From: Gemmatimonadota bacterium | GTDB lineage: Bacteria > Gemmatimonadota > Gemmatimonadetes > Gemmatimonadales > Gemmatimonadaceae | Length of the DNA: 57,104 nt | Reading direction: 5' to 3' | Assembly: GCA_021324775.1 (NCBI GenBank) | Contig: JAJPIM010000038.1 | Span: 1 to 57,104, forward strand | Shown here: positions 33,915 through 57,104 of the stretch, in pieces | Position numbering within the stretch: the first letter of the stretch is position 1 | Layout of the letters: every line of letters starts with the position of its first letter | The notes under the pieces: generated by a model | The model's database searches: none | Told to the model about the DNA's origin: nothing | Seen by the model: only the letters and a program-made list of their open reading frames with translations | Made by a program: the position numbers and the translations under genes

Positions 33915-34824
33915 GGAACTGCATCAGCTCCGATACTTTGTAGCCACGGCCGAGTGCGGCAATGTGAGCCGCGCGGCCGAGCGGTGTTTCATCGCGCAGC
34001 CGTCGTTGAGCCAGCAGCTCAAGAAGCTCGAGCAGCATCTGGGTACGATGCTTTTCGACCGGCTTGGCCGCGGTGTGGCGCTCACCGACGCCGGCCGGGC
34101 GCTCCTCCCCCGGGCGCGACGGATCCTGGCGGAGGTTCGGGAGACCGAAGCCAATCTGCGGCGTGAGGCGGAGGACGGCCCTGGCACGCTCGTCGTCGGC
34201 GCGATCCCCACGATCGCGCCCTACGTGCTTCCGCCCGCGCTGCGTGCCCTTCGGCGTGCGTATCCCGACTGTCCTGTGTCGGTCCGCGAGGATCTGAGCG
34301 AGGCGTTGGTCGAGGCCCTGGAGAACAACGAAATCGACTGCGCCCTGCTCAGCACGCCGTTGGACGATGACTTGCTGGATGTCGAGGTGATCGGCGAGGA
34401 GGAGTTGCTCGTCGCGCTGCCAACCGGGCACCCGGCGGCCGGCCGGCCGGAAATGCGTGTATCAGAGCTGCGCGGCGAACCGACGGTCGCACTCGAGGAC
34501 ATGCATTGCCTGGCCCGTCAGGTCCAGCATTTCTGCTCGACTCGGCACATCGCAAGCCGAGTCGTTTGTCGCACGACACAATTATCGACCATCACCGAGC
34601 TCGTGGCGCTCGGCCTGGGGCTCTCCCTCGTTCCGGAGATGGCGGCCGCCACGGACCGATCCGGGCGGTGCCGGTATCTCCGGCTTCGGCCCGGCAAACC
34701 GGTCCGCCAGATCGCTGTCGCGTGGCGGGCCGGCCGGAGCCGTCCCGTCGCGGCCACTCGGTTCATCGAAGCGGTCGCCACGAGGTTTCGGTCGGGTGGT
34801 CACTCATTCGTGCGACCGCACTAG
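33913..34824 (+). CDS. oxyR: OxyR hydrogen-peroxide-sensing LysR regulator
   Basis: A 303-residue LysR-type regulator. The winged-helix domain is at residues 1-60 (LHQLRYFVATAECGNVSRAA, QPSLSQQLKKLE). The sensing cysteines fall exactly at C199 and C208 (MHCLARQVQHFC), the positions of the peroxide-reactive pair in E. coli OxyR, so peroxide-driven disulfide switching is strongly supported. It is divergent from katA, the classic regulated partner, with a 71-bp shared control region. The start ATG 33913 lies within a candidate OxyR site; no ribosome site is visible. Confidence 0.95.
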   Translation: MELHQLRYFVATAECGNVSRAAERCFIAQPSLSQQLKKLEQHLGTMLFDRLGRGVALTDAGRALLPRARRILAEVRETEANLRREAEDGPGTLVVGAIPTIAPYVLPPALRALRRAYPDCPVSVREDLSEALVEALENNEIDCALLSTPLDDDLLDVEVIGEEELLVALPTGHPAAGRPEMRVSELRGEPTVALEDMHCLARQVQHFCSTRHIASRVVCRTTQLSTITELVALGLGLSLVPEMAAATDRSGRCRYLRLRPGKPVRQIAVAWRAGRSRPVAATRFIEAVATRFRSGGHSFVRPH

Positions 34825-34848
34825 CCGTCGCGGCCAGACGCCCCCCCG

Positions 34849-35376
34849 CTAGGAACGGGGCTTCGCCGTCGGCGGGAGCAAGTTGTTCAGCCGGAGATAG
34901 ATCGCAAACTGGCTGTAGTGGTCGGACCAGTCATCGACCCGTTCCATCATCATGCCGGCCCGCGTCCACTGCTGCCCAAAGGCCGAGACCGGGCCGGCGA
35001 GATTGGAATCATCGAGATGGGCGACCGATTGCTCGCAGAACGCGAAGCTCTCGCGCAGCCGCGCGACGAGCTTGGTCTTGTCGTCCGTCGGTGTGAGCTT
35101 AGCCCGGTCCGGGGCTTTCGCGCCCCCGATCGGAGGACACGCCTCGTCGTTGTCCTGCGCGACGTGCAGCACGATCTCCCCAAAGGTCATCTGCGCAGGA
35201 GTGGGCTTATAGCCGTACTTGTCCGCCGGCATTTCTTCGGCCGCCGCCACCAGGTTCTTCTCCATGCGCGTCGCGTTATGACGGAAGGCGTCGGCGGCCG
35301 GCGCCGAAGACTGGGCGGTACCGAGGGCTGGTAGAGCTGTCAGGGCAAGGAGAACGACGCTGCTGGCGATGCGCAT
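34849..35376 (-). CDS. Secreted DinB-like protein
   Basis: A 175-residue exported protein of the DinB/DUF664 four-helix type. ATG 35376 gives a signal peptide (MRIASSVVLLALTALPALGT, then AQSSA). The mature part has helices with LVAAAEEMPADKYGYKPTPA, MTFGEIVLHVAQDNDEAC and VDDWSDHYSQFAIYLRLN. The two His residues (HVAQDN and DHYSQ) match the metal-binding positions of DinB-like enzymes; the third ligand is less clear. Some family members are thiol-dependent metalloenzymes, but a secreted form with unknown substrate is all that can be said. It is convergent with oxyR. Confidence 0.85.
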   Translation of the reverse strand: MRIASSVVLLALTALPALGTAQSSAPAADAFRHNATRMEKNLVAAAEEMPADKYGYKPTPAQMTFGEIVLHVAQDNDEACPPIGGAKAPDRAKLTPTDDKTKLVARLRESFAFCEQSVAHLDDSNLAGPVSAFGQQWTRAGMMMERVDDWSDHYSQFAIYLRLNNLLPPTAKPRS

Positions 35377-35504
35377 GGGAGTGCTCGCGTTGTTAGGAGG
35401 GTGGCGCGTTCTAAGGCGCGTGGGGCACCATCTGGACCGGTCCGCGAATAATCTAGCCGATAACTGAAAAGCCACCACGACCCCGCTCGCTGACTCGTCG
35501 TCGC

Positions 35505-38285: not shown

Positions 38286-38542
38286 CTCGCTGCGAGACTC
38301 CGACCGCCCGTTGCAGCCTCATCCGGCGGCCCTCAGAGGTAGCGACGGGAATCGCTGCGGTCAAACGTGTGAAGATCGGCCCGACCGTCGCATCGCCGGT
38401 GATGTTACGTGGCGTATGGCGGGGTTACATCTCGAGCCTGGACATTACTCAGGAATCATCCCGATTGTTCGTAGCCACAGCTCGACCAACCGAGTCCCTG
38501 TGGGTGGGCCCGACTTCCGCGGATTCTCACGCCCCGAGGAGG

Positions 38543-38722
38543 ATGACCACAGTGACGCCGGCTCCGCTCCGCGCTTGCATCCTGTTCGCGTTGCTCTTGC
38601 GGAGCGTCGGGGCGACGCGCGGACTCGCGGCTCAGCAGCCCACGCCGAAGCCCGATATCGCGTACGTCGAGATCGCGGGCACTCCGCTCGGCGGATCGAG
38701 CGGAGACGGCGGCTTGTCAGCT
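38543..38722 (+). pseudogene. Truncated N-terminus of a secreted-protein gene
   Basis: AGGAGG at 38537-38542 is placed for the GTG at 38552 (or ATG 38543). A signal-peptide-like stretch follows (APLRACILFALLLRSVGATR, then GLAAQQPTPKPDIAYVEI). About 60 codons in, recognisable coding character ends around 38,720, where the promoter and operator of the metal-sensor gene begin. The frame remains open into the sensor gene but only as out-of-frame overlap. This looks like the 5' remnant of a gene cut off by arrival of the metal-resistance genes; the downstream part is not found in this window. Confidence 0.5.
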
Positions 38723-38743
38723 GGTAGTATAGTGGGGTATACT
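38714..38743 (+). promoter_or_regulatory. Metal-sensor gene promoter, probably leaderless
   Basis: TTGTCA (38714-38719) and TATACT (38738-38743) are spaced by 18 bp, close to the sigma-70 consensus. The -10 ends seven bases before the ATG at 38751, and there is no ribosome site, implying a leaderless transcript. Confidence 0.7.
38726..38743. promoter_or_regulatory. Candidate operator for the CsoR/RcnR-type sensor
   Basis: AGTATA-GTGGGG-TATACT is an inverted repeat with a G-tract core, the architecture of CsoR/RcnR family operators (A/T-rich arms around a G/C tract). It covers the -10 hexamer, so binding would block transcription of the sensor and the following ATPase. Confidence 0.6.
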
Positions 38744-38750
38744 TCACGCC

Positions 38751-39026
38751 ATGTCTCATATCGTCCAGAACAAGACCAAGCTCGCCCAACGCGTGGGCCG
38801 GATCCGGGGCCAGGTGGACGCCGTCGCGCGCGCCTTGGAAGACGGGGCCGAGTGCGGAGAGGTGCTGCGTCTCATCGCCAGCGCGCGCGGGGCGATGAAC
38901 GGCCTCATGGCCGAGGTGCTGGAGGACCACATCCGCCACCACGCGTTCCGCGGCGCCCGTTCGGGTTCGGTCGACGCCCAGGCGGCGAACGAAGTCATTG
39001 ACGTTATTCGCTCCTACCTGAAATAG
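38751..39026 (+). CDS. RcnR/CsoR-family metal-sensing repressor
   Basis: A 91-residue all-helical repressor of the DUF156 family (CsoR, RcnR, FrmR). Candidate metal ligands are H3 (MSHIVQNK), C35 (EDGAECGEVL), H60 and H64 (LEDHIRHHAF). The H-C-H-H set is that of the nickel/cobalt sensor RcnR, rather than the C-H-C set of copper-sensing CsoR. The RcnR-like N-terminus MSH and the motif GQVDAVARALEDG agree. These repressors release DNA when metal binds. It is followed by a P-type ATPase 57 bp downstream, its likely target, and preceded by an operator-like inverted repeat. Confidence 0.92.
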   Translation: MSHIVQNKTKLAQRVGRIRGQVDAVARALEDGAECGEVLRLIASARGAMNGLMAEVLEDHIRHHAFRGARSGSVDAQAANEVIDVIRSYLK

Positions 39027-39083
39027 GCCGGCCCCCGTCCCGCGCCGCCACTTCTGCCGTCGACCGATGCCTGCGAGGCTGCC

Positions 39084-41126
39084 ATGACGCCGAAGCCCGA
39101 AACGCTCGAGGAGGCCGCCGGCGAGCGCCTCACGCCACCCGCCCGCGCCGCCAGCACTCCCGGCTACGCTCAGCACGGCCGCGATCTGCGCGACCGCGAT
39201 CTGCACGACACCGAGCATGGGGCCGAGCAGCACGAGCACGGAGAGTCCATTGAGGGGCGGGAGATCGCCCGCGTCGTGTTCGTGGCGATCACCGCCGCGG
39301 CAGTCTGGTTTCACATCTGGGAGCCGTTCGCGAGGGTGAGCGTCATCGGACTGCTCGGCATCGCGGTGGGAGGCTATCCGATCTTCAAGGAAGCGTGGGA
39401 GAACATCCGCGAGCGCCGGATGACGATGGAGCTGTCGATGACGATCGCGCTCGTCGCGGCTCTGCTGATCGGGCAATTCTTCACGGCGCTGGTCATCATC
39501 GCGTTCGTGCTCGTCGCCGAGATTCTGGAGGGATTGACTGTCGGCCGCGGGCGGAAAGCGATCCGTAATCTCCTGGACTACCTGCCTCAGACTGCGGTCG
39601 TGCGCCGCACCGGCGGCGCGAGCGAGATCGAGGCGAGCGAGCTCACGGTGGGCGATATCGTGCTCGTTGCACCCGGGGCCCGGATCGCGGTCGACGGGCG
39701 GGTGCTCGCCGGGCACTCGTACGTCGATCAATCCACGATCACAGGTGAGTCCGTGCCGGTAGAGAAGACGATTGGCGCGCCGGTGTTCGCCGGGACGATG
39801 AACCAGACCGGGGCTCTCGATGTCGCTGCCGAACGGCTCGGACGCGACACGAGCTTCGGCAAGATCGTCGAGGTCGTCGAGCGAGCCGAACGCTCGCGCG
39901 CACCGGTGCAGAAGACGGCCGATCGCTATGCGGGCTACCTGGTATACTTTGCGCTGGGCTGTGCCGCTTTGACGTTCGCCATCACCCGCAACGCGACGTC
40001 GACGATCTCGGTGATCATCGTGGCCGGTGCGTGCGGCATCGCCGCCGGTACTCCCCTCGCAGTGCTTGGAGCCATCGGCCGGTCGGCGCGTGCCGGGGCG
40101 ATCATCAAGGGCGGCCGCTATCTGGAAGCGCTGTGGGCGATCGACACCGTCGCTTTCGACAAGACCGGCACCGTGACGATGGGTGTGCCGGAGGTCCGCG
40201 CCATTCGCCCAGTCGCCGGCACGGAGCGCGAGTTGCTCGAGGCGGCCGCTGTGGCCGGACGCCGGTCGGAGCACCCGCTGGGGCGCGCCATCGTTGCCCG
40301 CGCGAACGCCGCGGGCGTCGCCGCCGCAGAGCCGGCAACGTTCGACTATACGCCCGGTCGCGGCGTCTTGGCGACGACGGGTCGCGGGGAGCGAATCCTC
40401 GCCGGCACCCCGACGTATCTCGCCGAGCGCGGCGTCATCGGGACACCCACTGTCGGCGCCAACGGCACAGGGGAGGGTGGTCCCCTCTCATCCGTGCTCG
40501 TCGCGCGGGATGGGCGATTCCTCGGCACGATCGACGTCGCGGACGCCGTGCGACCCGAGGCCGCCGCCGCGGTGCGTGCGTTGCGCAACATGGGGCTCCG
40601 GACCGTACTCCTCACGGGCGACGCTCGCCCGGTCGCTGACGCAGTGGCTCGGGAGTTGAGAGTCGATGACGTGGGCGCCGAACTGCTGCCTGCCGAGAAA
40701 GCGGCAAGGGTTCGCGCCCTCGCGGAGAGCGGACGGAGGATCGCGATGGTCGGCGATGGCGTCAACGATGCGCCGGCACTGGTCGAGGCCAGCGTCGGGG
40801 TGGCGATGGGGTCGGGGACCGATGTGGCGCAGGAAAGCGCCGACATCGTTCTGCTGGGCAGCGACCTCCGGGCGTTCGCCGAGACCGTTCGGATTGCGCG
40901 GCGGTGCCGTGCCATCATTCGCTTCAATTTCATCGGTACGCTGTCCGTCGACGCGCTCGGCGTCGGACTCGCGGCATTCGGCTATCTGAACCCGCTCATG
41001 GCGGCGTTCATCCACGTCGCCTCGGAGCTCACCTTCATCCTGAACTCGGCGCGGCTACTGCCCGCGGTGTCGCGGGCGCCGTCGGCTCCGTCGCGCCCGG
41101 TCGCGGCTGCCACCGCTGCGGTGTGA
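39084..41126 (+). CDS. Heavy-metal P1B-type ATPase with non-canonical CPx motif
   Basis: A 680-residue metal-exporting ATPase of the inner membrane. It has TGES (residues 220-223, actuator), AFDKTGT with the phosphorylated D359, SEHPLG (395-400) and MVGDGVNDAPAL (near 556). The C-terminal helices read NFIGTLSVDALGVGLAAFGY and HVASELTFILNSARLLP. The N-terminus has no HMA CxxC domain but a His-rich stretch (about residues 30-55). The intramembrane metal site, usually CPC, SPC or TPC, is GAC (VAGACGIAAGTP, C317) with no proline. Linked to a RcnR-type sensor, nickel or cobalt export is the best guess; zinc or copper remain possible. Confidence 0.92.
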   Translation: MTPKPETLEEAAGERLTPPARAASTPGYAQHGRDLRDRDLHDTEHGAEQHEHGESIEGREIARVVFVAITAAAVWFHIWEPFARVSVIGLLGIAVGGYPIFKEAWENIRERRMTMELSMTIALVAALLIGQFFTALVIIAFVLVAEILEGLTVGRGRKAIRNLLDYLPQTAVVRRTGGASEIEASELTVGDIVLVAPGARIAVDGRVLAGHSYVDQSTITGESVPVEKTIGAPVFAGTMNQTGALDVAAERLGRDTSFGKIVEVVERAERSRAPVQKTADRYAGYLVYFALGCAALTFAITRNATSTISVIIVAGACGIAAGTPLAVLGAIGRSARAGAIIKGGRYLEALWAIDTVAFDKTGTVTMGVPEVRAIRPVAGTERELLEAAAVAGRRSEHPLGRAIVARANAAGVAAAEPATFDYTPGRGVLATTGRGERILAGTPTYLAERGVIGTPTVGANGTGEGGPLSSVLVARDGRFLGTIDVADAVRPEAAAAVRALRNMGLRTVLLTGDARPVADAVARELRVDDVGAELLPAEKAARVRALAESGRRIAMVGDGVNDAPALVEASVGVAMGSGTDVAQESADIVLLGSDLRAFAETVRIARRCRAIIRFNFIGTLSVDALGVGLAAFGYLNPLMAAFIHVASELTFILNSARLLPAVSRAPSAPSRPVAAATAAV

Positions 41127-41221
41127 TGCTGTGCCGGCATACGCACCGCGCGCGGACTCTTGCCCGTCCAAACCATTCGGTGAGTTGCGGCCCCGCAGCC
41201 GCCGTGGACCCCCGCAGGTCG

Positions 41222-42775
41222 CTAGTGTCCCGGAGCCTCGGTCGTCGCGACCGCCGTCGGCCACCCGCCACCGAGCGATTGATAGAGGTCCACGACGCCG
41301 GCCAGTGCCTGGAACTCGACGGCCACCAGCGTTTGCTCCGCAGCGAACAAGCTCCGTTGGGCGGTCAATACGTCCAAGTACGGAGCGTAGCCGGCCTCGT
41401 ACTTGTCCCGCGACAGCCGATAGGCGATACGGAGCGCTTGCACCTCCGCCTGCAACGCGACGGTTTGCTGACGATCGTTGCGCACTTCCGAGAGATAGTT
41501 ATTGACATCGTGAAAGGCGGCGAGCACAGCCTGCTCATAGGTGTTCCGCGCCTCGACCGCACGCGCCTCTGCGGCGTGCTGCGCGTCCGCGAGCGCGCCA
41601 AAATCGAAGACCGGAATCGACACGCCTGCGTAGACCTGGTAAATCTGGTTGCCTGGTGCGGTGAATGGACCCGGCGGGATGTAGCGGCTGGTTGAGAAGT
41701 TGTCGTAGCCCCAGTACCCGTTGATCGTAAACGTGGGTAACCGTGCGTCGATCGCCGCCCCGACGCCGGCCGTCGCTGCTCGGAGCTGCGCCTCGGCCTG
41801 TCGGACATCGGGCCGGCGTTCGAGCAGCTGCGACGGAATACCGACGGGCACATCGACGGCGTTTAAGACGTCGTTGAGTGAGCGCCCGCGCGGAATCGAC
41901 GCCGGGGAGCGGCCCAGGAGCACGCTGAGCTCGTTCTCTGTCTGTTCCACCTGCTTCTCGTATGATGCGACCGACGAAGCGGCGTCGCCGACGTCACCTT
42001 CGAATTGCCGCAGGTCGAGCTCCGCGATCGTGCCGCGATTGAATTTCTTTTGCGACAGTGTGTAGGTCTCCTGTCGTGACGCGAGGGTGCGTTTCGCGAT
42101 ATCCAGGTCGAGGTCCAGCTCTCGGAGCTGGAGATAGGCGGTGGCGACGGACCCGACGAGCGAGAGCAGCACGGATCGGCGGCTTTCCTCTTCCGCCAGG
42201 AGATTGCCGCGGGCCTCGGCTCGCACGTTCCGCAAGCGACCCCAAAAGTCGAGCTCCCACGATACGTTGCCCAGGCCCTCGAGATAGTTCTGCGGAGGAA
42301 TCGAGATGCTGCCCAACGCCTCCTTTTCTCGCCCCGACTGGCCGGTGATCGTGAAAGCAGGGAACAGTCCAGCGGTCGCCCGACGCAGATCGGCCTGGTA
42401 TTCCTGGACCGTCGCGGCCGCGACCCGTACGTCGCGGTTCCCGTTGATCGCGGTGACAACGAGCTGCTTGAGGACCGTGTCTTGGAACAGGTCGAACCAG
42501 GACGCCGCGGCGGTCGCGTCCGATTGCAAGAAGGTCGGCCGCGACAGCGCGCGCGTCTCGGCGTCTGACGTTGCCTCGGACGTGTCCGGCCGGCGACGGG
42601 CCATGGAGTCCCGGCTGGCGGCGAGCGCGTCATACGTTGACCTGAGCGAGTCCGCGCCAAGCGGAACCGGCCGATATTGCGGCGGCGGCTGCGTATCGGG
42701 TCGGTGGTACCCGGGCCCGACCGCACACCCCGCTGCCAGCCACATCGCAAGCGATACAAGAGAGAGGCGTGCCAC
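41222..42775 (-). CDS. Outer-membrane efflux lipoprotein (NodT/OprM family)
   Basis: The outer-membrane channel of a tripartite efflux pump, 517 residues from GTG 42775. This start gives a compact lipoprotein signal with lipobox LAAGC (MARLSLVSLAMWLAAGC). GTG 42868 would add 31 non-signal residues. The family body has AVGPGYHRPDTQPP after the lipid-anchored Cys, PTFLQSDATAAASWFDLFQD, SWELDFWGRLRNVRAEAR, LLERRPDVRQAEAQLRAA and VPLFQSLGGGW-like ends (DLYQSLGGGWP). The two outer-membrane-factor repeats are both present. It follows the RND permease gene on the same strand. Confidence 0.93.
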   Translation of the reverse strand: MARLSLVSLAMWLAAGCAVGPGYHRPDTQPPPQYRPVPLGADSLRSTYDALAASRDSMARRRPDTSEATSDAETRALSRPTFLQSDATAAASWFDLFQDTVLKQLVVTAINGNRDVRVAAATVQEYQADLRRATAGLFPAFTITGQSGREKEALGSISIPPQNYLEGLGNVSWELDFWGRLRNVRAEARGNLLAEEESRRSVLLSLVGSVATAYLQLRELDLDLDIAKRTLASRQETYTLSQKKFNRGTIAELDLRQFEGDVGDAASSVASYEKQVEQTENELSVLLGRSPASIPRGRSLNDVLNAVDVPVGIPSQLLERRPDVRQAEAQLRAATAGVGAAIDARLPTFTINGYWGYDNFSTSRYIPPGPFTAPGNQIYQVYAGVSIPVFDFGALADAQHAAEARAVEARNTYEQAVLAAFHDVNNYLSEVRNDRQQTVALQAEVQALRIAYRLSRDKYEAGYAPYLDVLTAQRSLFAAEQTLVAVEFQALAGVVDLYQSLGGGWPTAVATTEAPGH

Positions 42776-42876
42776 CTCAGTCGTCTCTTGCTGGCAATGG
42801 CGACTGACCCCCGGCTGGGACCAGCGCGTGCGCAGCACAGGGACCCACCAGTCGCTCGCTCGGCCCACGGGGTCCG

Positions 42877-45800
42877 TCAGTCATCGCCAGGCGCGGGACT
42901 CAGCAGCGCGCCGGCTTGCTGCCGCTCCTTGCCGACCCCCGACCATCTCTCGACCACGTAGAAGAGCACCGGAATGAAAAACACTCCGATGAAGGTGCCG
43001 GCCAGCATGCCTCCGATCACGGTAGTGCCCATGATCTGACGCGCCACCGATCCCGCGCCGGTCGCCGCCCAGAGCGGGACGGTACCAAGCATGAAGGCGA
43101 ACGATGTCATCAGGATCGGCCGAAGCCGTATCCGGGCGCCCTCCAGGGTGGCGTCGATGAGCGACTTGCCGAGTGCGAGCTGGTCCTTGGCAAACTCGAC
43201 AATCAGAATCGCGTTCTTGGCGGTCAATCCGATCAACATGACCAGGCCGATCTGCGAATAGACGTCGCCTTCGATTTGCACCATGTAGCTCGGCAGGAAT
43301 GCCGAGAGCAGGGTCCGACGCAGCCAAAGCATGGCGAAGGCCCCGAACACCGCGATCGGCGTGCTGAGGAGAACGCCGAACGGCAGCGTCCAGCTCTCGT
43401 AAAGCGCCGCCAAGATCAGGAAGACGAAGGTCAGGGAAAAACCAAAGATGGCCGCCGGCGAAACGCCTTGCTGTGCCAGCTTCTCCTGGAAGGACATTCC
43501 CATGTAGTCGTAGCCCATCTCGCGCGGCATGGTCTGCGCGAAGACCTCTTCCAGAGCCGCCGTGGCTTGTCCGGCGCTGTACCCGGGAGCCGCGGCGCCG
43601 TTGATTTGCGCGGCGCGATACTCGTTAAAGCGCATGGTGAACTCCGGGCCCGGACGCGCTTCAAATCGCGTCAGCGCCGCCAGCGGCACCATTTGGTTGT
43701 TGCTGTTTCGGACGAAGAACTGGCCGACATTCTCAGCCCTCGTCCGGTATTCGCCTTCGGCCTCGATATAGACCTGCCACTCTCGGCCGAAGCGGTTGAA
43801 ATAGTTAATGAACAGGCCGCCCATGAACGCCTGGACGGTCCGGTAGACATCACTGATGGGCACGCCTTGCTTGATGACTTTATCGCGGTCGACGTCGATG
43901 AACTCCTGGGGCACACTGGGAAGAAAAGTGGTGCTCAAGCCGGCAATCTCCGGTCGCTTGCTCGCCGCCGTCATGAACGTCTTCAGATTGGAGGCGAGAA
44001 ATTGCAGGTCCTGGCCGGACCTGTCCTCGAGCGCAAACGTAAATCCCCCGGCGGTGCCGACGCCCGGAATGGCCGGCGGCGAAAACGCGAAGGCGATGCC
44101 TCCCGGCACTTGGGACAGTCGCTGGTTGATGCGCTGCTTGATCGCCTGAAGCTGTTCGGCGCGAGAGCGGCGAGCGTCCCAGGGAGTCAAGGTGACGAAG
44201 AAGAATGCGTTGTAGCTCGTCTGGATAGAACTGAGCAAGCTGAAGCCGACAACGCTGGTGGTGTATTGGACGCCGGGCGTCTTGGCTAACGCCGCCTCGA
44301 TTTGCCGGGCGACCTCCTCGGTGCGTTGCAGCGAGGCGGCATTGGGCAATTGCAGATTGATGTAGAGATACCCCTGGTCCTCATCGGGCAGAAAGCTCGA
44401 TGGCACTCTCCCGGCAAAGAACGCGCCTGCTGCGCCAAACGCCACCAGCAGCACGAGCGCGATCGCGCTCTTCCGAATCAGGGCACCGCACCCTCGCACG
44501 TAGGTGTTGGTGACCTCCGCAAAGGCTCGGTTGAACCAGCCAAACAACCGGTTGAGCAGGCCTCGGCTCGTCGTTCTCGGCCGAAGCAGGAGCGCCGAGA
44601 GGGCCGGGCTCAGGGTCAGCGCGTTGAACGCCGATAGGATCACGGCAATCGCGATGGTCACGGCGAATTGCTGGTATAGACGGCCGGTGATGCCGGGAAT
44701 GAACCCCGTCGGAATGAAGACGGCCGACAGCACCAATGCGATGCCCACGACAGGGGCGGAGATCTCCTCCATGGCCTTGAGCGCCGCGGCCTTCGGTGCG
44801 AGGCCATCCTCGATGTGGCGTTCGACCGCCTCGACTACGACGATCGCGTCGTCCACCACCAGACCGATGGCCAGCACCAACCCGAACAGCGAGAGTGTGT
44901 TGACCGAGAAGCCGAACAACGGGAAAAAGACGAAGGTCCCAACCAGCGACACGGGCACGGCCAAGAGCGGGATCAGCGTGGCGCGCCAGCCTTGCAGGAA
45001 GATGTACACGACGATCGTCACCAGACCGATGGCGATGACCAGCGTGCGGAGGATCTCCTGAATGCCTTGGGTGACGGCCAGGGTGGTATCCAGCGACACG
45101 ATGTAATCCACGTCGTGCGGGAATCGCCCCTTGGCCTCGGCCATGAATCTCCTGACGCCGGCCGCGGCCTGCACCGCGTTCGAGCCGGGCAACTGGTACA
45201 CCGCGATGATGGCGCCGGGCTTTCCATTCAAGCGACCGAGCGTGGTGTAGCTCTGCGCGCCGAGCTCGATGCGCGCGACATCTTTGAGGCGCACCACGCC
45301 TCCCGCCGGAGACTCGCGAACCACGATGGCTCCGAACTCTTCGGGAGACGTGAGCCGGCCCTGGGCTCTGACAGCGTAGGTGTATTGCTGTCCTTTGGGC
45401 ACGGGTTCGCTGCCGACCTGCCCAGCAGGATTTACCGTGTTCTGCGCTTGAATGGCCGAGGTGATGTCTGGAACGGTGATCGCCAACTTGGCCAGCTGGT
45501 CTGGCTTGACCCACAACCGCATCGCGTACTGGCCGGAGCCAAAAATCTGCACGTTGCCAATGCCATAGAGTCGCGTGAGCTGATCCGCGAGATTGATATA
45601 GGCATAGTTGGACAAGAACTCCGCGTCATTTGTGCCGTTCGGCGAGTACACGCTCAGGAGCATCAGGGGCGCGGTGACCGTCTTCTGCACCGTGACGCCA
45701 AAATTGGTGACGTCCGCCGGCAGCTGCGACGCGGCTTGCGTCTCGCGCATCTGCGCGAGGATGAGGTCCGTGTTCGGTTGCGTTGCCACGTCGAAGTCGA

Positions 45801-46077
45801 CCGTGAGTCGCATCACCCCATTGGCGGTCGCGTTCAACGAATACATGTAATTCATGTTGTCCACGCCGCTCATCCGCTGCTCGATCGGCGTGGCGACAGC
45901 CTGCTCGATTGTCTGCGCATCGGCGCCCACGTAGGTGGCCTGCACCTGGACCTCGGGCGGCACGATGTTCGGGAATTGGGCCACCGGCAGCGCCGTGATG
46001 CTGACCGCGCCGACAATCACCGTGAGAATGGCAATGACGATGGCGACGATAGGGCGGTTGATGAAAAACTTGGACAC
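42877..46077 (-). CDS. RND efflux permease (HAE1 family)
   Basis: The inner-membrane proton-driven pump of a tripartite system, 1066 residues. It begins MSKFFINRPIVAIVIAILTV, the typical HAE1 start. The proton-relay motif GLVVDDAIVVVE is in transmembrane helix 4, and the second half has GLTAKNAILIVEFAKDQ and RLRPILMTSFAFMLGTVPLW. Large periplasmic loops (including the porter-domain segments) are present in both halves. HAE1 pumps export hydrophobic and amphiphilic compounds, including many antibiotics; the CusA/CzcA metal-type signature is absent. It starts three bases after the adaptor gene stop. Confidence 0.96.
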   Translation of the reverse strand: MSKFFINRPIVAIVIAILTVIVGAVSITALPVAQFPNIVPPEVQVQATYVGADAQTIEQAVATPIEQRMSGVDNMNYMYSLNATANGVMRLTVDFDVATQPNTDLILAQMRETQAASQLPADVTNFGVTVQKTVTAPLMLLSVYSPNGTNDAEFLSNYAYINLADQLTRLYGIGNVQIFGSGQYAMRLWVKPDQLAKLAITVPDITSAIQAQNTVNPAGQVGSEPVPKGQQYTYAVRAQGRLTSPEEFGAIVVRESPAGGVVRLKDVARIELGAQSYTTLGRLNGKPGAIIAVYQLPGSNAVQAAAGVRRFMAEAKGRFPHDVDYIVSLDTTLAVTQGIQEILRTLVIAIGLVTIVVYIFLQGWRATLIPLLAVPVSLVGTFVFFPLFGFSVNTLSLFGLVLAIGLVVDDAIVVVEAVERHIEDGLAPKAAALKAMEEISAPVVGIALVLSAVFIPTGFIPGITGRLYQQFAVTIAIAVILSAFNALTLSPALSALLLRPRTTSRGLLNRLFGWFNRAFAEVTNTYVRGCGALIRKSAIALVLLVAFGAAGAFFAGRVPSSFLPDEDQGYLYINLQLPNAASLQRTEEVARQIEAALAKTPGVQYTTSVVGFSLLSSIQTSYNAFFFVTLTPWDARRSRAEQLQAIKQRINQRLSQVPGGIAFAFSPPAIPGVGTAGGFTFALEDRSGQDLQFLASNLKTFMTAASKRPEIAGLSTTFLPSVPQEFIDVDRDKVIKQGVPISDVYRTVQAFMGGLFINYFNRFGREWQVYIEAEGEYRTRAENVGQFFVRNSNNQMVPLAALTRFEARPGPEFTMRFNEYRAAQINGAAAPGYSAGQATAALEEVFAQTMPREMGYDYMGMSFQEKLAQQGVSPAAIFGFSLTFVFLILAALYESWTLPFGVLLSTPIAVFGAFAMLWLRRTLLSAFLPSYMVQIEGDVYSQIGLVMLIGLTAKNAILIVEFAKDQLALGKSLIDATLEGARIRLRPILMTSFAFMLGTVPLWAATGAGSVARQIMGTTVIGGMLAGTFIGVFFIPVLFYVVERWSGVGKERQQAGALLSPAPGDD

Positions 46078-46080
46078 GGC

Positions 46081-47238
46081 TCAATTGCCCGGCGTCACGG
46101 GAGTGCTCGGCTTGATCGTGACGGGGGAGCCGTCACGGACCTTCTGCACGCCTTCCACGACTACGCGCTCTCCCGCGCGGACGCCGCTGTCGACGATCCA
46201 CATCGTGTCCACCCGCTCGCCGACCGTGATCGGCCTGAGGGCCACCTTGTCGTCACCTCCCACCACGGCCACCGAATAGGTTCCCTGGAGTTCGATCACC
46301 GCCTTCTGGGGTACGAGCATCGCACCTTTTCTCGTGTCGGGGGCGGCGCGCACCCGTCCGAACTGACCCGGGCGCAGAATGTGGTCGGGATTGGGAAATG
46401 CGCACACCACTTCGATGGTGCCCGTCGTGACGTCCACCTGCCGATTCGTCTCCAGCAGTGTGCCCTGGCGCGGATAGACCGTGCCGTCCGCCAGCACGAG
46501 CTCAAACGGCGGTGCATCCGGATGCACATCCTGTTGCGTGTGCGAGTTGATGCGTGCCGCAAAGTGCAGGTACTCCTGCTCGCTGATCGGAACGTACGCC
46601 TTGATCGGATTGACCTGCGAGACCGAGGTCAAAGTGGTGCTCGGGGTGACCAGGTTGCCGATTTGCACCTGCGCGATTCCGGCGATGCCGTCGATCCGGG
46701 ACGTGACGTGCGTGAAGTCCAGGTTCAATTGCGCCTGTTCGACTTGCGCCTCGGCCGCTTTGACCTCCGCTTCGGCCGCGAGGTACGCCTGAGTGTCATC
46801 GTCCAATTGCTGCTGCGGAATAGCGTTCTCCGCCGCCAACGGCGTCTCACGCTCGACGTCGTGCTGGATTTTGCCGGCCTGCGCCTGGCCTTGCGCGAGT
46901 TGTGCCCTCGCTTGGTCGAGTACGGCCTGAAACGGACGCATGTCGATCTGGAAGAGCAGCTGACCCTTCCGGACGAACGACCCTTCCTTATAGTTCTGGC
47001 TGACGACGTATCCTGTGACTTGTGGCTGAATCTGCGCGTTGACGTAGCCATCCAGCGTCGCGACCCATTCCCCGTACAGCGGGACATCCCGTTGTATCAC
47101 GCGGGTCACTTCGACCTCGACAGGCGGGGGTGCTGGCGCCTTCTTACTCTGGCAGCCGGCCAAGAGCACAAAGATGGGCCAAGCCATCTCGGATCCTGTG
47201 CGTGGTCTCCAGCCTGTGAGACCGGGTACGCTGAACAT
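46081..47238 (-). CDS. RND efflux periplasmic adaptor (membrane fusion) lipoprotein
   Basis: The adaptor that bridges pump and channel, 385 residues from ATG 47238. The lipobox MAWPIFVLLAGCQ lies about 17 residues in; ATG 47187 would start right at the hydrophobic core. The lipoyl-like hairpin and coiled coil are visible (VNAQIQPQVTGYVVSQNYKE, QAVLDQARAQLAQGQAQAGK), followed by beta-barrel and membrane-proximal parts (PGQFGRVRAAPDTRKGAMLV). Lipid anchoring fits AcrA-type adaptors. It is the first gene of the - strand operon adaptor-permease-channel. No local TetR-type repressor was found. Confidence 0.94.
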   Translation of the reverse strand: MFSVPGLTGWRPRTGSEMAWPIFVLLAGCQSKKAPAPPPVEVEVTRVIQRDVPLYGEWVATLDGYVNAQIQPQVTGYVVSQNYKEGSFVRKGQLLFQIDMRPFQAVLDQARAQLAQGQAQAGKIQHDVERETPLAAENAIPQQQLDDDTQAYLAAEAEVKAAEAQVEQAQLNLDFTHVTSRIDGIAGIAQVQIGNLVTPSTTLTSVSQVNPIKAYVPISEQEYLHFAARINSHTQQDVHPDAPPFELVLADGTVYPRQGTLLETNRQVDVTTGTIEVVCAFPNPDHILRPGQFGRVRAAPDTRKGAMLVPQKAVIELQGTYSVAVVGGDDKVALRPITVGERVDTMWIVDSGVRAGERVVVEGVQKVRDGSPVTIKPSTPVTPGN

Positions 47239-47700
47239 GATCTGACGCCCTTGGTTCGTTTTACACTCGGAATTCCAACACCCCGACCAGCGCATGCGGT
47301 GCGATCGCCGCGACAAGCGTTGCGGCCAATACAGAGGGAAGCGCGTAACGCCTTCTACCTCGGCCAGTCCTCCAGTCGTCCAAGCGAAATCGAGCGCGGC
47401 GCGCAGTGGCCCGATTGGGCGTCTATCACCTCCGGCCTCGCCAACACTAGGCGGCAGTGCCGCGTGTTGCAATCAGCCACAAGGGATACGAGAGCCATCG
47501 GCTGTTAGCCTTACAGCGTCATGTTACTTCTTGCGTAGGACAACCCGGGACGCACGAGCGGCCTCGGCCCCTCGAACGGGACGCTCGTTCGCAAAACCGC
47601 TTCTCGAGCGGTGATCTCGCCACCATCGGAGAGGCCTTGTCGTCGGCGTTCACCTACATGACCGCACAATTCACCGGCGTCGTCGCGCGCGGTATCAAGG
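47239..47700. other. Intergenic stretch without a supported gene
   Basis: Between the adaptor gene and the ATPase-like fragment there is no reading frame with family similarity or coding character that I trust. It probably carries the efflux operon promoter (a TAAAAC just after a TGTAAAAC-like run about 20 bp upstream of 47238 is a weak candidate). It may also hold debris from rearrangement. Confidence 0.4.
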
Positions 47701-47779
47701 CGGTGCCGTGGGATCATTGGCTTCGACTTCATCGGCACCCTGTCCGTCGACGCGCTCGGCGTCGGACTCGCTGCATTCG
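47701..47779 (+). pseudogene. 79-bp fragment homologous to the P-type ATPase gene
   Basis: This 79-bp stretch matches 40902-40980 inside the heavy-metal ATPase gene at 71 of 79 positions by eye. In the ATPase frame it encodes RCRGIIGFDFIGTLSVDALG and onward, corresponding to ATPase residues 607-632. Similarity stops on both sides and there is no open coding context, so it is a remnant of a second, related ATPase gene. It lies at the other end of the efflux operon, in direct orientation relative to the intact gene. Confidence 0.75.
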
Positions 47780-47864
47780 CCACCTCGAGCGCCTCCGTGC
47801 GCGGGAGCGACGGGCGGTCTTGGATCTCGCGAGGTTCTATCGGTGCTCGGAAGGATGACCGACA

Positions 47865-48824
47865 TTGGCTGAACCGCCCCCGCCTCTGAAATCCCGCGCG
47901 ATCCGACGATTGATCCTGCTCTCCGCGATCGTCGCGGCCGGCACGGGCATCGCCGTGGCGACCCACCCGGCGCAGGTGCGGGCAGCGCTTTCGCAGCTGA
48001 TGCGCCTCCCCATGCCTGCCCTCGCGGAAGCCTTCGTGATGGTCCTTGGCCAGCTCGCGCTCCAGAGTCTACGGCAGTGGGCCGTCGTTCCCCGGGACCT
48101 GGCGCTGAGACCCGTCCGAGTGGCGCATGCCTTCCTCTGGGGCCAGTGGCTGAACATCGTTGCGCCCGCTCGCACCGGCGATGCGCTCAGAGTCGTGCTG
48201 ATCCGGCGCGAGTCCGGCAAGGGCCTCGGGGGCGTCCCATCCGCCATTGGTGCCGTATTGGCCGACAAGGTGGTGGATCTCGCGTCCCTCGTATTGCTCT
48301 GCGCCGCGGCCGGGTCGATCGGTCTCCTTTGGACGCGGGCATACGCACGCCTGTTCGAAGCCGCAGTGGCCGCCGCTGCCGTGGTTGCCGTGGTTGCAGC
48401 CATGCGACTGCGCAGCGGTTCCCAGGAAAAACACTGGACCTGGATGCGGGATCTCCGGGACGGGTTATCGGCGCTGCGGGATGGCCCACGGGTGATGGCC
48501 AGCTTGGTGTTTGCCTTGGCGTCGTGGGTGGCCGAAGGTGGGGCACTCTGGTTGCTGTGCGCGGGGTTGGGTGTCATGCCGACCCCGTCAGAGATTCTTC
48601 TCGCCCTAGCCGTGCTGAACGTCGGCATCAGCGTGCCGATTTCGTTTGCGAATCTGGGCGTGTACGAGGCGGCGCTGGCGTCCGGTCTCGGTTACGCGGG
48701 TGTGCCGCTGCCAACTGCTCTCGCGGTCGCCGCTTCTCACCATGCCGTGGAATTGCTGGCGCAAAACGTCGCCGTCGCGGGGCTCTCGCTCTCGACCCGT
48801 GCTCCCAGCAGGATCAACCGCTAA
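47865..48824 (+). CDS. LPG synthase TM-like (UPF0104/AglD-type) membrane protein
   Basis: A 319-residue integral membrane protein with about eight hydrophobic segments, of the lysylphosphatidylglycerol-synthase transmembrane-domain family. Typical parts are HAFLWGQWLNIVAPARTGDA near residue 90, GAVLADKVVDLASLVLL near 130, and SFANLGVYEAALASGLGYAG near 262. Members without the soluble domain often act as lipid-carrier flippases or glycosyl-lipid accessory proteins. No soluble catalytic domain is attached here. TTG 47865 is preceded by GGAAGGA at 47849-47855; an ATG nearby at 47855 is in another frame and stops after five codons. Confidence 0.85.
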   Translation: MAEPPPPLKSRAIRRLILLSAIVAAGTGIAVATHPAQVRAALSQLMRLPMPALAEAFVMVLGQLALQSLRQWAVVPRDLALRPVRVAHAFLWGQWLNIVAPARTGDALRVVLIRRESGKGLGGVPSAIGAVLADKVVDLASLVLLCAAAGSIGLLWTRAYARLFEAAVAAAAVVAVVAAMRLRSGSQEKHWTWMRDLRDGLSALRDGPRVMASLVFALASWVAEGGALWLLCAGLGVMPTPSEILLALAVLNVGISVPISFANLGVYEAALASGLGYAGVPLPTALAVAASHHAVELLAQNVAVAGLSLSTRAPSRINR

Positions 48825-48968
48825 GGAGATCGTCACGCAGGCGAGACACCCCCTCAGCGCGCTCGTGAACCTCATCGACAGAAATGCGCCGGTCGAAGCG
48901 CAGCTCATCGTGGCCCGCCGGTGCAATCTGAGTCGTGGCGCGTTTTCGGCTGACGGGTTCCGCTCCTT

Positions 48969-49361
48969 TCAATTTCGCTCGGCCACGCGGACGAGCAGCC
49001 AGATGGCACTGGCCAGGAGAACCGGCGCCGAATACGTGCCGGGCATGAGGCGGCGATAGCGAACGGAGGCGCCGAGGTGTAGCAACCCATTGCCAACCAT
49101 GATCGCGCCGTAGGCAGTGGCAATGGGAACAATCCACGGCGCTCCCCGGAAGGCGAAACCAGACAGGGCGAACAGGATGCCACAGGCGAGTACGAGGCCC
49201 GTGAGCCAGAGGCGAAAGCTGAAGGTCGGAAAACTGAGAAACCGGTACCGCTGGCGCAGGGCGCGCACGGTCGCGTTGTACACAGGGAGGAAGCCGGTCA
49301 ACGCCTCGTCCGCGATGTGCAGCGCAAACGCACAACAGAGCCCAACCCAGGCGGAGCCCAT
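48969..49361 (-). CDS. Small HXXEE-like integral membrane protein
   Basis: A 130-residue protein with four hydrophobic segments: WVGLCCAFALHIADEALTGF, LTGLVLACGILFALSGFAF, VPIATAYGAIMVGNGLLHLG and TYSAPVLLASAIWLLVRV. The HIADEALTGF motif in the first helix and the second His in GLLHLGAS resemble the HXXEE membrane-protein family (metal-ligand-like His and Glu), whose function is not established. A strong ribosome site (GGAGGG) precedes ATG 49361. It is convergent with the upstream membrane-protein gene. It has ordinary coding character, though it lies in an apparently rearranged area. Confidence 0.75.
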   Translation of the reverse strand: MGSAWVGLCCAFALHIADEALTGFLPVYNATVRALRQRYRFLSFPTFSFRLWLTGLVLACGILFALSGFAFRGAPWIVPIATAYGAIMVGNGLLHLGASVRYRRLMPGTYSAPVLLASAIWLLVRVAERN

Positions 49362-49432
49362 GTGCCCTCCCTCGGTTCAATCGTTTCGGCCGCGGAATAA
49401 TGATGCTTCGGTAACCCGCGGCACTCGAGAGA

Positions 49433-49452
49433 TTCCACGCTTGCGCGTGGAA
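49433..49452. repeat. Perfect inverted repeat (8-bp stem, 4-base loop)
   Basis: TTCCACGC (49433-49440) pairs exactly with GCGTGGAA (49445-49452) around TTGC. It lies upstream of the - strand membrane-protein gene and 50 bp before an integrase remnant. It could be a protein-binding palindrome, a recombination-site half or a small hairpin. No T-run follows. Confidence 0.5.
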
Positions 49453-49501
49453 CATCGGCGCGCATCATATCGAGATGACGTTTTGCGATGACCGATGAAT
49501 C

Positions 49502-49696
49502 GTGATGTGGCGGCCGGGCATGGCGGACCGTCTCATCGCCATGCAGCTCGGCCATAAGGACACGACGCTGATCGCGACGCGGTACGGTAGATTGACACTG
49601 GACGGTTCCGTTGCGCGGGGCAGGCGCAAAGAGCCAGGTAATTCCGCCGGCACGACAGACGGCAGGGCACAAGGGCATCGAAATCGCTGGAAGTAA
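49502..49696 (+). pseudogene. Tyrosine recombinase (integrase) C-terminal remnant
   Basis: The frame reads RLIAMQLGHKDTTLIATRYG, matching the last catalytic part of tyrosine recombinases: the LGHK box with its His, and a Tyr in ATRYGRL as the nucleophile candidate. Stops lie just upstream, and the Arg-containing first boxes are missing, so only about 60 codons of the C-terminus are left. It sits 31 bp before tRNA-Arg, in the typical place for an integrase at the edge of an integrated island. Confidence 0.65.
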
Positions 49697-49712
49697 CGGC
49701 ATGGAAGTAACG
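49688..49712 (+). repeat. Direct repeat TGGAAGTAACG, two copies 14 bp apart
   Basis: TGGAAGTAACG occurs at 49688-49698 and 49702-49712, between the integrase remnant and tRNA-Arg. Short directly repeated sites at this place can be integrase arm sites or leftover junctions; chance is also possible. Confidence 0.45.
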
Positions 49713-49727
49713 CAACATCAACCACTT

Positions 49728-49801
49728 GCCCCCGTAGCTCAGGTGGATAGAGCAGCGGTTTCCTAAACCGTTGGCCGGGTGTTCGAGTCACCCCGGGGGC
49801 A
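49728..49801 (+). tRNA. tRNA-Arg (anticodon CCT)
   Basis: All arms fold: acceptor GCCCCCG/CGGGGGC (49728-49734 with 49794-49800), D stem GCTC/GAGC, anticodon stem GCGGT/ACCGT with loop TTCCTAA giving anticodon CCT, and T stem GGGTG/CACCC with loop TTCGAGT. The discriminator base is A at 49801 and CCA is not encoded. tRNA-Arg(CCT) reads the AGG codon and is a frequent integration target. Confidence 0.95.
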
Positions 49802-49830
49802 CTGCGGAGCGTAAAGACTCAGGCCGTCAG

Positions 49831-49848
49831 GCGCGGTGAGCGCCGCGC
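49831..49848 (+). terminator. Possible hairpin after tRNA-Arg
   Basis: GCGCGG (49831-49836) and CCGCGC (49843-49848) can pair 30 bases after the tRNA. The stem is GC-only and no T-run follows. Confidence 0.3.
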
Positions 49849-49852
49849 GAAT

Positions 49853-49872
49853 TACGTGCGAATACGTGCGAA
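49853..49872 (+). repeat. Perfect tandem 10-bp repeat TACGTGCGAA x2
   Basis: TACGTGCGAA occurs twice in direct succession at 49853-49862 and 49863-49872, between the tRNA and a small gene. Confidence 0.6.
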
Positions 49873-49979
49873 CTAATTGGAGCCTGTATCGTATCTATGA
49901 CCTCTGAAAAAAGCACGAGCCATTGGGCAGGCCAATACCAGATGAGTCGACGGCCACATCCGATTCGGGAGTCCTTGCA

Positions 49980-50246
49980 ATGACCACCCACCGCCGATTG
50001 TCCGCAGAACACCAGCAGACACTATTCAAGATCTTTCAGCACAAGCCGACGACGATCGAGTGGGCGGACCTCGTGCACCTGGTCGAAGAGGTCGGTGAGA
50101 TCGCGCCCAAGGGCGACGGCACGTACCGCCTCGTCGTGAATGGCGAGGGGCACGTCCTCAAGCGGCCGCACCATGACCGGATCGCAGACCCTGATGATCT
50201 GGCGGCGATCAAGACGCTCTTCGAGCGCGGTCGTGTGATGCCGTGA
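49980..50246 (+). CDS. Small protein, weakly HicA-toxin-like
   Basis: An 88-residue protein with a good ribosome site (GGGAG about eight bases upstream of ATG 49980). It begins LSAEHQQTLFKIFQHKPTTI, then EWADLVHLVEEVGEI, a short beta stretch (GTYRLVVNGEGHVL) and KRPHHDRIADPDDL with a conserved-looking PHH, ending in a helix. The order helix-beta-beta-(PH)-helix resembles small HicA-family proteins of the type found in many genomes as orphans. The fold similarity is suggestive only, and no HicB partner or antitoxin gene is next to it. Confidence 0.6.
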   Translation: MTTHRRLSAEHQQTLFKIFQHKPTTIEWADLVHLVEEVGEIAPKGDGTYRLVVNGEGHVLKRPHHDRIADPDDLAAIKTLFERGRVMP

Positions 50247-50511: not shown

Positions 50512-50694
50512 CGGGCCGAAATGACGGGACGGGCCGCGCGCATTGCCTGCCCGGAGCGTTGGCGACGGTCCTGCAACCTTATTCGGGTCCGGCTTCTCCA
50601 ATACCAGGACCTCGGGCGAGACCAGACGTGCGGATGGAACGCCCGCCTTTCCCGTTCATATCGCGCTCAACCCGCATCGCCGCCGGGACGTGCC

Positions 50695-51921
50695 ATGCCT
50701 CATCGGAACGAACACATCGCGCGCCATCGGATCACGCACGGCGTTATGGGCGCTCTGCTGGTACTCGCCTGCCGTCCCACTGGGCCCGCTGACCACTACG
50801 GGTTCATCACGCGCCTCGGCAACGACACCGTCGCCGTCGAGAACGTGACGCGCCAAGGCAACACGGAAACAACCGATGAGGTCGACCGGTTCCCGCTCGT
50901 TCGCGTACGGCACACCGAGATCCAGCTCGGTCCTGACGGCAGCATCCGGCATCTCGTCATGCAGATCTACACGCCGAGCGAGCCACCGGCTCAACGCCAT
51001 CGTCAAGTCGTCGCCGACGTGACGAGGGATTCCGTGTTCCTCTCGAAGACGGATAGCACGGGCACGGTCCGGCGCGCGTTCGCCACCAATGGCGGCGTTA
51101 TCGAGGCCCATCTTCCGCAGATGTACAGCCTCTATGAGCTCTACTTCGACGCGGCACTGAACCGCGCTGAGCTGGCCAAGCGACCGCCAGGCGACACGGA
51201 GCAGATGCGGCAGTTCTACATCGATCGCGAGTTCGACCAGTTCCCGCTGGGCCATGGCGTGGTGCGGCCGCTACCGGGTGGTACGGCGGAGATCTCACAC
51301 GACTGGCTGGCTGGGGTCGGAACCGCAGCCTTTGATTCGGCCGGCCACATGCTGTCGTACTCCGGCGCCAGGACGACGTACAAGGTGGACGTCAGCCGCC
51401 TCGCGACCCCTCCCGACATTCAGGCGGCGGCTGGGCGATTTGAGGCCGCCGAGGCGAAGAGCGGCGTGACAGAGCTGAGCGTGCGGGACACCGTCCGCGC
51501 GAGCATTGGCAAGGCGAGCTTCACTATCGACTACGGCCGGCCGCTCGTACGCGGGCGCGTGCTGGTCGGCAACATTCTTCCGTACGACCATGTGTGGCGG
51601 ACCGGCGCCAACGCGGCGACGCAGTTCACGACGTCGGCGCCCGTGACCGTCGCGGGCATTCGGGTACCGGCAGGGACGTACACGTTGTGGACTGTTCCAC
51701 GCACACACGGCGCCGATTTGATTGTCAACCGGGAGAGCGGCCAGTGGGGCACCGATTACGACGGCTCGCGGGACCTCGGCATGGCGCATATGACGACAGA
51801 CACGCTTGGAACGCCGGCTGAGAAGTTCACCATTTCCATCGACCCGAGCAGCAAGACGCGTGGTGCGCTCACGATGGAATGGGGGCCGTTTCGGTGGATG
51901 GCGCCTATCGAGGTACGGTGA
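50695..51921 (+). CDS. DUF2911 lipoprotein (copy 3)
   Basis: A 408-residue third paralogue. ATG 50695 gives a lipoprotein signal with VLAC (residues 23-26), so the mature protein is lipid-anchored, unlike copies 1 and 2. The N-terminal domain starts YGFITRLGNDTVAVENVT and aligns with the corresponding RLGxDTxxVE region of the other two. The DUF2911 domain has ASFTIDYGRPLVRGRVLVGN, DHVWRTGANAATQF, VPAGTYTLWTVP and SGQWGTDYDGSRDL. It is more divergent than the tandem pair. Function unknown. Confidence 0.9.
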   Translation: MPHRNEHIARHRITHGVMGALLVLACRPTGPADHYGFITRLGNDTVAVENVTRQGNTETTDEVDRFPLVRVRHTEIQLGPDGSIRHLVMQIYTPSEPPAQRHRQVVADVTRDSVFLSKTDSTGTVRRAFATNGGVIEAHLPQMYSLYELYFDAALNRAELAKRPPGDTEQMRQFYIDREFDQFPLGHGVVRPLPGGTAEISHDWLAGVGTAAFDSAGHMLSYSGARTTYKVDVSRLATPPDIQAAAGRFEAAEAKSGVTELSVRDTVRASIGKASFTIDYGRPLVRGRVLVGNILPYDHVWRTGANAATQFTTSAPVTVAGIRVPAGTYTLWTVPRTHGADLIVNRESGQWGTDYDGSRDLGMAHMTTDTLGTPAEKFTISIDPSSKTRGALTMEWGPFRWMAPIEVR

Positions 51922-56283: not shown

Positions 56284-57104
56284 TTACTGGCCGTTCGTAT
56301 TCCCGGTGGTGGGGCCCGAGAGGACTGGGAGCACGATCGACGACGGGTATTGGGCCCCGTGGTGGATCACGTTGTGCGCCACGAGTGGGTCCTTTTCGTC
56401 GTAGTTGTTGCCGCCGGTGTTCAGGTTCCGCTCGAAGTGCGGAAAGTTGCTGCTCGACACCTCAATGCGAATCCGGTGGCCGGCCGCAAAGGCGTTGCCC
56501 GTGGTCAACGGGCTGAGCTCCACCTTGTAGACCTGGCCGGGCGTCATGAACACCGGGTGGTCCCACCCCTCCCGCCACCGCACGCGTTGGATGGTTTCAT
56601 CCAGGTTGTATGCCTTCCCGTCCGGAGAGACGTCGAGCAGCTTGATCGTCAGGTCGGTGTCCTTGCGGTCCGAGGACAGGTACAGGGTCACCGTGACCGG
56701 GCCCGTGACCTCCACCGCGTGCGTCAGTGGTGGCGTGGTATACACCAGCACATCGGCGCGCATCTCGGTCCCGGACTGATCGTACGCCCCGGCCGGCTCA
56801 ACGGTGTCGAGCACGGACCGCGAGTAGCAGCACCAGGTGCCGCCTCCGAGAGTGCGGACCGGCGTGAGCGGATCGTAGGTGAAGCGATCCGCCGCCGCCT
56901 TGGCCGGCTTCGTCGTCGTCAGGCGGCCATCGCCCATCCGCGTGTTCGCCCCGCCGTCGCTGTCGAGGTAATACGACACAGGACGGGCTTCCTTCGGCGG
57001 CCAACTGTCGTACGTGCGCCACTGGTTCGCGCCCATCATGTACGCGCGCACCCGCGGCTGGCTGAGGACCGAGTTGTCGACGCCCTTCACGAAATGATCG
57101 AACC
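56284..57104 (-). CDS. CocE/NonD-family hydrolase, C-terminal part (partial)
   Basis: The gene runs off the right edge, so only the C-terminal 273 codons are visible and the start is missing. The segment FDHFVKGVDNSVLSQPRVRA at the edge is the family step that joins the alpha/beta-hydrolase core to the beta-jellyroll domain of the X-Pro dipeptidyl-peptidase/cocaine-esterase group. It continues with VTGPVTVTLYLSSDRKDTDL, LTTGNAFAAGHRIRIEVSSS and NFPHFERNLNTGGN. The catalytic Ser lies outside the window. Such secreted enzymes hydrolyse amino acids from peptides or antibiotics; the substrate cannot be told. It is convergent with the gene ending at 56103. Confidence 0.9.
   Translation of the reverse strand, partial: FDHFVKGVDNSVLSQPRVRAYMMGANQWRTYDSWPPKEARPVSYYLDSDGGANTRMGDGRLTTTKPAKAAADRFTYDPLTPVRTLGGGTWCCYSRSVLDTVEPAGAYDQSGTEMRADVLVYTTPPLTHAVEVTGPVTVTLYLSSDRKDTDLTIKLLDVSPDGKAYNLDETIQRVRWREGWDHPVFMTPGQVYKVELSPLTTGNAFAAGHRIRIEVSSSNFPHFERNLNTGGNNYDEKDPLVAHNVIHHGAQYPSSIVLPVLSGPTTGNTNGQ

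Follow-up and report, generated by a model that had tools for sequence, protein, structure and literature searches.

A probable worn integration edge beside tRNA-Arg(CCT) in a Gemmatimonadaceae genome

The stretch of DNA analysed here, which we call the window, is the entire contig C23 (57,104 bases) of a 4.19-Mb genome in 46 contigs (G000). The DNA just upstream of its tRNA-Arg(CCT) gene is probably the fossil, tRNA-proximal end of at least one mobile element that entered by tyrosine recombination at this tRNA, on its 5' side. A gene order conserved among relatives is interrupted before the tRNA, a recombinase remnant stands in the interruption, displaced tRNA halves in relatives have their junctions in the anticodon loop, and one relative, G190, carries an integrase placed in the same way. 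The original prediction had read an island edge here and given the island an extent of 38.5-49.8 kb; the worn integration-site edge at the tRNA stands, on gene order and on the layout seen in G190, G197 and G033, while the extent does not.

In relatives, the conserved order is pcm-apt-tRNA-yfgM-dapF, with apt upstream of the tRNA on the same strand, a TPR/YfgM-like gene (yfgM) and then dapF beyond it, and, farther upstream, pcm, a MerR gene, gpsA, plsY and der; the neighbour gene names at the tRNA locus are our own reading of the sequences. In the window, der, plsY, gpsA, merR, pcm and apt follow in order at 19.5-27.7 kb, collinear with relatives, and the order then breaks:

26977-27690, + strand, apt (adenine phosphoribosyltransferase), the ancestral left neighbour of the tRNA, 80% identical to the apt of congener G002
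27691-49727, composite island of 22.0 kb between apt and the tRNA, from gene-order comparison
49418-49696, + strand, tyrosine-recombinase pseudogene, C-terminal part only, from an own-genus profile and tblastn
49728-49802, + strand, tRNA-Arg(CCT), intact, called by ARAGORN and scoring 64.7 bits with the Rfam tRNA model

The tRNA call thus agrees with the original prediction. We measured 74 distinct tRNA loci, some of them from outside Gemmatimonadaceae, of which 47 gave a readable apt-tRNA gap and 54 a readable tRNA-yfgM gap; the set was built by a pcm search that requires pcm within 10 kb, so that long gaps are under-counted. The apt-tRNA gap is 21-199 bp in 32 of the 47 loci, 568 bp in one and 1.0-22.0 kb in 14, the window's gap of 22,037 bp being the largest. 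Between the tRNA and yfgM, the distance stays below 0.75 kb in 47 of the 54 loci and reaches 2.8-6.7 kb in the other seven. Comparison of gene order, which had been proposed as a check, shows an order conserved in relatives and broken here, and distant relatives are without the window's arrangement. The interruption starts right after apt, at 27690, far to the left of the predicted 38.5 kb.

Two features of a tDNA island are present in the window, namely a break in the gene order conserved among relatives and an intact tRNA gene at one end (49728-49802). As had been suggested, we looked at the far boundary for a second copy of the tRNA end, but no displaced tRNA-Arg(CCT) half was found at 27.6-49.7 kb or in the rest of the window, and the halves of relatives were easily found at the same sensitivity; thus the left boundary is set solely by gene order. 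As for an integrase gene inside the island, there is a C-terminal pseudogene only. Because both the displaced fragment and the integrase are missing, we classify the window as a relict; at this site, relatives do possess these features of tDNA islands.

The gap carries the following cargo:

27818-31917, two DUF2911 proteins (- strand) and a hydrolase/TPR protein (+ strand), from Pfam
32354-34824, catalase (- strand) and LysR-type regulator (+ strand), from a domain scan
34849-35478, - strand, DinB-superfamily protein, 88% to G002, in the same gap
35505-47472, TonB-dependent receptor, CsoR, copper-type P-ATPase and RND efflux set (outer-membrane protein, pump and fusion protein), from a domain scan
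47865-48824, + strand, LPG-synthase-TM protein, 86% to G002, in the same gap
48969-49361, - strand, HXXEE-domain membrane protein, from a domain scan

The DUF2911 and hydrolase proteins are 70% and 73% identical to those encoded next to apt in G002, and on these identities the part at 27818-31917 should predate the split between G000 and G002. The apt-tRNA gap of G002 measures 18.7 kb, holds dinB and the LPG-synthase-TM gene in swapped order relative to the window, and keeps a recombinase fragment of the same subfamily (C42:13364-13624, E 5.5e-11). Nucleotide comparison with G001 and G002 spanned 30700-49700, that is, 19,001 of the 22,037 gap bases, and gave no match in either genome for the catalase and LysR genes; the G002 relatives of the window's copper-type ATPase and efflux genes lie on other contigs. 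Since part of it is shared with G002, the gap is not one recent arrival; it would have begun before the G000/G002 split and been rebuilt since. DUF2911 proteins occur on both sides of the interrupted locus, two on the left at 27818-30868 and one on the right at 50521-51921.

The broken genes that had been reported to the left of the tRNA were not recovered: 9 of 10 scanned cargo proteins carry the expected domains and none of the ten looks truncated, and the copper ATPase, CsoR, LPG-synthase-TM and HXXEE proteins have their expected domains without looking truncated. The suggested compositional scan likewise revealed little deviation: GC is 0.689 on the left of the gap, 0.658 within it and 0.654 on the right, the GC3 ranges overlap, and the GC minimum is at 42-48 kb of the window. 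Composition was thus rejected as island evidence, the gap being nearly normal; such near-normal composition had been named as an argument against an island, and it is outweighed because the gene order is interrupted.

The recombinase C-terminus announced 31 bp before the tRNA is real. Its open frame, codirectional with the tRNA, runs from 49499 to 49693 and is closed by a TAA at 49694-49696, 31 bp upstream of the tRNA; its translation contains MQLGHKDTTLIATRYGR. Tyrosine recombinases are recognised by the LGH box, the C-terminal Tyr and the HxxR of box II. The remnant keeps the LGH box and the C-terminal Tyr, QLGHKDTTLIATRYGR aligning with own-genus recombinases; its box-II region is degenerate, with CDDR where relatives have HDHR and a stop after CDDR. 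Neither the HxxR of box II nor the rest of the catalytic domain was found by tblastn, in which weak homology to the copy on our own contig C34 reaches upstream across the in-frame stop at 49496-49498 and ends at about 49418. Against a profile built from three same-genus recombinases (own contigs C6 and C34 and G002 contig C66, with the window's remnant excluded), the remnant scores 25.7 bits (E 4.2e-6 in a search of 10,288 ORFs), and the best score among shuffled versions of the same 10,288 ORFs is 8.4 bits. The best pairing, RPGMADRLIAMQLGHKDTTLIATRYGR in the remnant with RRGMPLQLVAHQLGHKDTTLVQRTYGK in G002, shows 59% identity over 27 aa. Pfam, NCBIfam and PHROGs gave no match for the remnant, nor did the PDB, and tblastn against plasmids returned five weak records (E 2-8), two of them annotated as site-specific integrase. 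The piece at 49418-49696 is a C-terminal pseudogene, and the remnant itself is predicted to be inactive; with the recombinase dead, neither excision nor transfer of the window's element is expected.

Elsewhere in the genus, recombinases end about 5-115 bp from a tRNA at L049, L050, L052 and L116. These tRNAs are Leu(CAA), Leu(TAA) and Met, each convergent with the recombinase, and Cys, which is codirectional with a recombinase on its 5' side.

The same tRNA is used repeatedly in relatives. We searched for tRNA-Arg(CCT) in 179 family genomes, of which 155 match, and found at least 11 displaced halves in at least five genomes, all half-copy counts being lower bounds. At least seven are five-prime halves (nt 1 or 4 to 41-46; one each in G002 and G031, two in G190 and three in G198) and at least four are three-prime halves (nt 33-75; two in G002 and one each in G198 and G186). 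All of them share nt 33-41, TTCCTAAAC, in the anticodon loop, and all are compatible with a crossover there; judged from these junctions, tRNA-Arg(CCT) in relatives is a recurrent anticodon-loop integration site. In G198, one tRNA is preceded by three five-prime halves and followed by one three-prime half, each of them on the tRNA strand; the five-prime halves form part of 134-nt direct repeats, which also take in element DNA, as expected for stacked elements. At this locus (L176:3513-18259), we count four or more stacked integration events around one tRNA-Arg(CCT), three on the 5' side and one on the 3' side.

Integrase genes are found at the corresponding place in some of these genomes. G190 has a complete integrase (Pfam PF00589, E 1.7e-11), which is codirectional with the tRNA and whose stop codon ends 23 bp upstream of it; a C-terminal integrase piece likewise precedes one of the displaced halves of this genome. 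In G197, all that remains of a related integrase is a C-terminal piece whose stop lies close upstream of the tRNA, and G033 has a decayed integrase piece of another type, 146 bp before the tRNA. The window repeats this pattern of an integrase end before the tRNA. Among the 74 loci, a profile search found four at which part of an integrase lies no more than 2.5 kb from the tRNA, upstream in the window, G033 and G190 and downstream in G198; the training sequences of this profile included the G190 integrase, which therefore matches by construction, its Pfam match being independent, and the pieces of the window, G033 and G198 were outside the training set.

Other copies of the tRNA were noticed in the course of this search. 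G135 (L181) has two full-length tRNA-Arg(CCT)-like copies, at 6540-6614 and 11213-11287, 4.6 kb apart on one strand. Contig C29 of our own genome bears a degenerate tRNA-Arg(CCT)-derived sequence (L024:8668-8739) that ARAGORN calls tRNA-Ser(GCT); it scores 28.1 bits with Rfam, where the cut-off is 29, its acceptor stem is mispaired, and a pseudo-tRNA is the probable reading. The same contig has an 18-nt T-arm piece at 10133-10150, 1.4 kb from the degenerate tRNA, and an outer-membrane/RND pair related to that of the window at 14.1-18.9 kb.

Repeats surround the remnant and the tRNA:

49433-49452, inverted repeat TTCCACGC-CTTG-GCGTGGAA, perfect, with 8-nt arms and a loop of 4
49688 and 49702 (49688-49712), + strand, direct repeat TGGAAGTAACG in two copies, spacing 14
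49853-49872, + strand, tandem TACGTGCGAA in two copies, from sequence inspection

These are all present as first described, but the palindrome is ordinary, because the 57-kb window holds 19 perfect inverted repeats of this kind (arms of at least 8 nt, loops of 3-8 nt), and for this one at 49433-49452 we found no evidence of any role. Exact 10-nt direct repeats with a spacing of 10-20 nt occur at four places in 57 kb, two of which flank tRNA-Arg(CCT), and an imperfect TACGTGCGAA tandem adjoins a displaced tRNA 3' half in G002. There are weak indications that the TGGAAGTAACG pair may represent recombinase arm sites. The 11-mer AAGTAACGGCA is common to the window's TGGAAGTAACG region and the element ends of G190 and G197; it was rejected as proof of arm sites, being equalled by 22 of 2000 shuffles and tied by one of 70 control loci, and is a hint only. 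The 8-mer AAGTAACG was also tried as a mark of integrase-bearing loci alone and fails for G033 and G198.

On the right of the tRNA, yfgM and dapF are absent from the 7.3 kb of contig. We located dapF on contig C20 (43 kb), which is collinear with G002 contig C13; therefore, rearrangement has also affected the right side of the tRNA. A PepX_C-type hydrolase gene at 56284-57102 resembles sequence 68 bp beyond the G002 tRNA, which suggests that 6.4 kb may also have been added to the right of the tRNA; the gene is multi-copy, so the resemblance is no proof. An 88-aa protein at 49980-50246, 178 bp past tRNA-Arg(CCT), matches PHROG 8887 (toxin) with E 9e-8.

We propose the following course of events. 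The recombinase would exchange strands in the anticodon loop, at about nt 33-41; a copy of the tRNA 5' half brought by the element would be joined to the native 3' half, so that the tRNA is restored intact, and the native 5' half would be displaced to the far end of the element. In such an element, the recombinase gene would have the orientation of the tRNA and stop a few tens of bp short of it. Successive rounds of insertion, deletion and rearrangement would then have left the cargo of about 22 kb between apt and the tRNA and only the final part of one recombinase gene. We infer where the strands were exchanged, in which order the events occurred, and that the window's remnant was once part of such an element. 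No displaced 5' half was found at 27.6-49.7 kb that would prove its far end, and plain rearrangement also took part, since the tRNA's right neighbourhood is non-ancestral.

This last point raises the question of whether ordinary chromosomal rearrangement could be the whole explanation, with the tRNA at a breakpoint in this genus and the recombinase piece an unrelated stray fragment. The displacement of dapF to C20, in collinearity with G002 C13, the non-ancestral right neighbourhood, the swapped order of dinB and the LPG-synthase-TM gene in G002 and the lack of a displaced tRNA half in the window are all compatible with it; however, the position, strand and end point of the remnant match the complete integrase of G190 and the decayed ones of G197 and G033, and apt and the genes to its left are still collinear with relatives, and we consider this explanation unlikely.

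Much less probable still is that 38.5-49.8 kb is one intact island, about 11 kb long, with metal and efflux cargo. The gene order breaks at 27690, no boundary mark exists at 38.5 kb, and the flanking dinB and LPG-synthase-TM genes both occur in the same gap of G002, although CsoR, the copper-type ATPase and the RND genes do lie together, with their closest G002 relatives on other contigs, and GC is lowest at 42-48 kb. That the recombinase motif is a chance translation of intergenic DNA is scarcely credible: the silence of the curated libraries and the PDB speaks for it, but a profile made without the remnant scores it far above the shuffled ORFs (25.7 against 8.4 bits, E 4.2e-6), and the 59% identity to G002 extends over 27 aa. 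Integration at tRNA-Arg(CCT) from the 5' side, followed by decay, is the reading that we favour.

As a decayed case, the window belongs to a known kind of integration site, with the minority 5'-side polarity. The tDNA islands described in the Islander report resemble it in having a tyrosine recombinase by a tRNA gene and a class with crossover in the anticodon loop, and resemble its relatives in their tandem arrays and displaced tRNA fragments; the window differs in having no displaced fragment, in keeping only a dead recombinase piece and in lying on the minority 5' side, a 5' fragment being given there for 159 of 3919 islands (PMC4383910). The same 5' polarity is described for the pTN3-like integrases in an archaeal review, according to which this polarity is seldom met in bacteria; these integrases belong to archaeal plasmids and are likened to the window by polarity, not by sequence (PMC8371274). 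Canonical 3'-side tDNA islands share the crossover region, as seen in the three-prime halves of G002, G186 and G198, but they lie downstream of the tRNA, whereas the remnant in the window lies upstream, in the same orientation as the tRNA.

As a finding, this is modest. Gene order gives a firm footing to a worn integration edge that is invisible to databases. In a phylum that has received little study, the results point to one tRNA locus that takes up elements from both sides at the same crossover, with a 5'-side polarity that is uncommon in catalogues. It is possible, although we regard it as rather doubtful, that tRNA-Arg(CCT) in Gemmatimonadaceae is a hotspot at which the rare 5'-side class prevails (at least seven halves versus at least four), that insertions swap the tRNA 5' half together with its promoter, and that recombinase 3' ends persist as the tRNA promoter. 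These ends would persist beside the tRNA because the stretch would now drive it; no sigma-70-type consensus promoter was found upstream of tRNA-Arg(CCT) in the window or in G190, which leaves the promoter reading without positive support. Tandem stacks such as that of G198 offer a way to address a possible dependence of the host tRNA on element DNA as its promoter.
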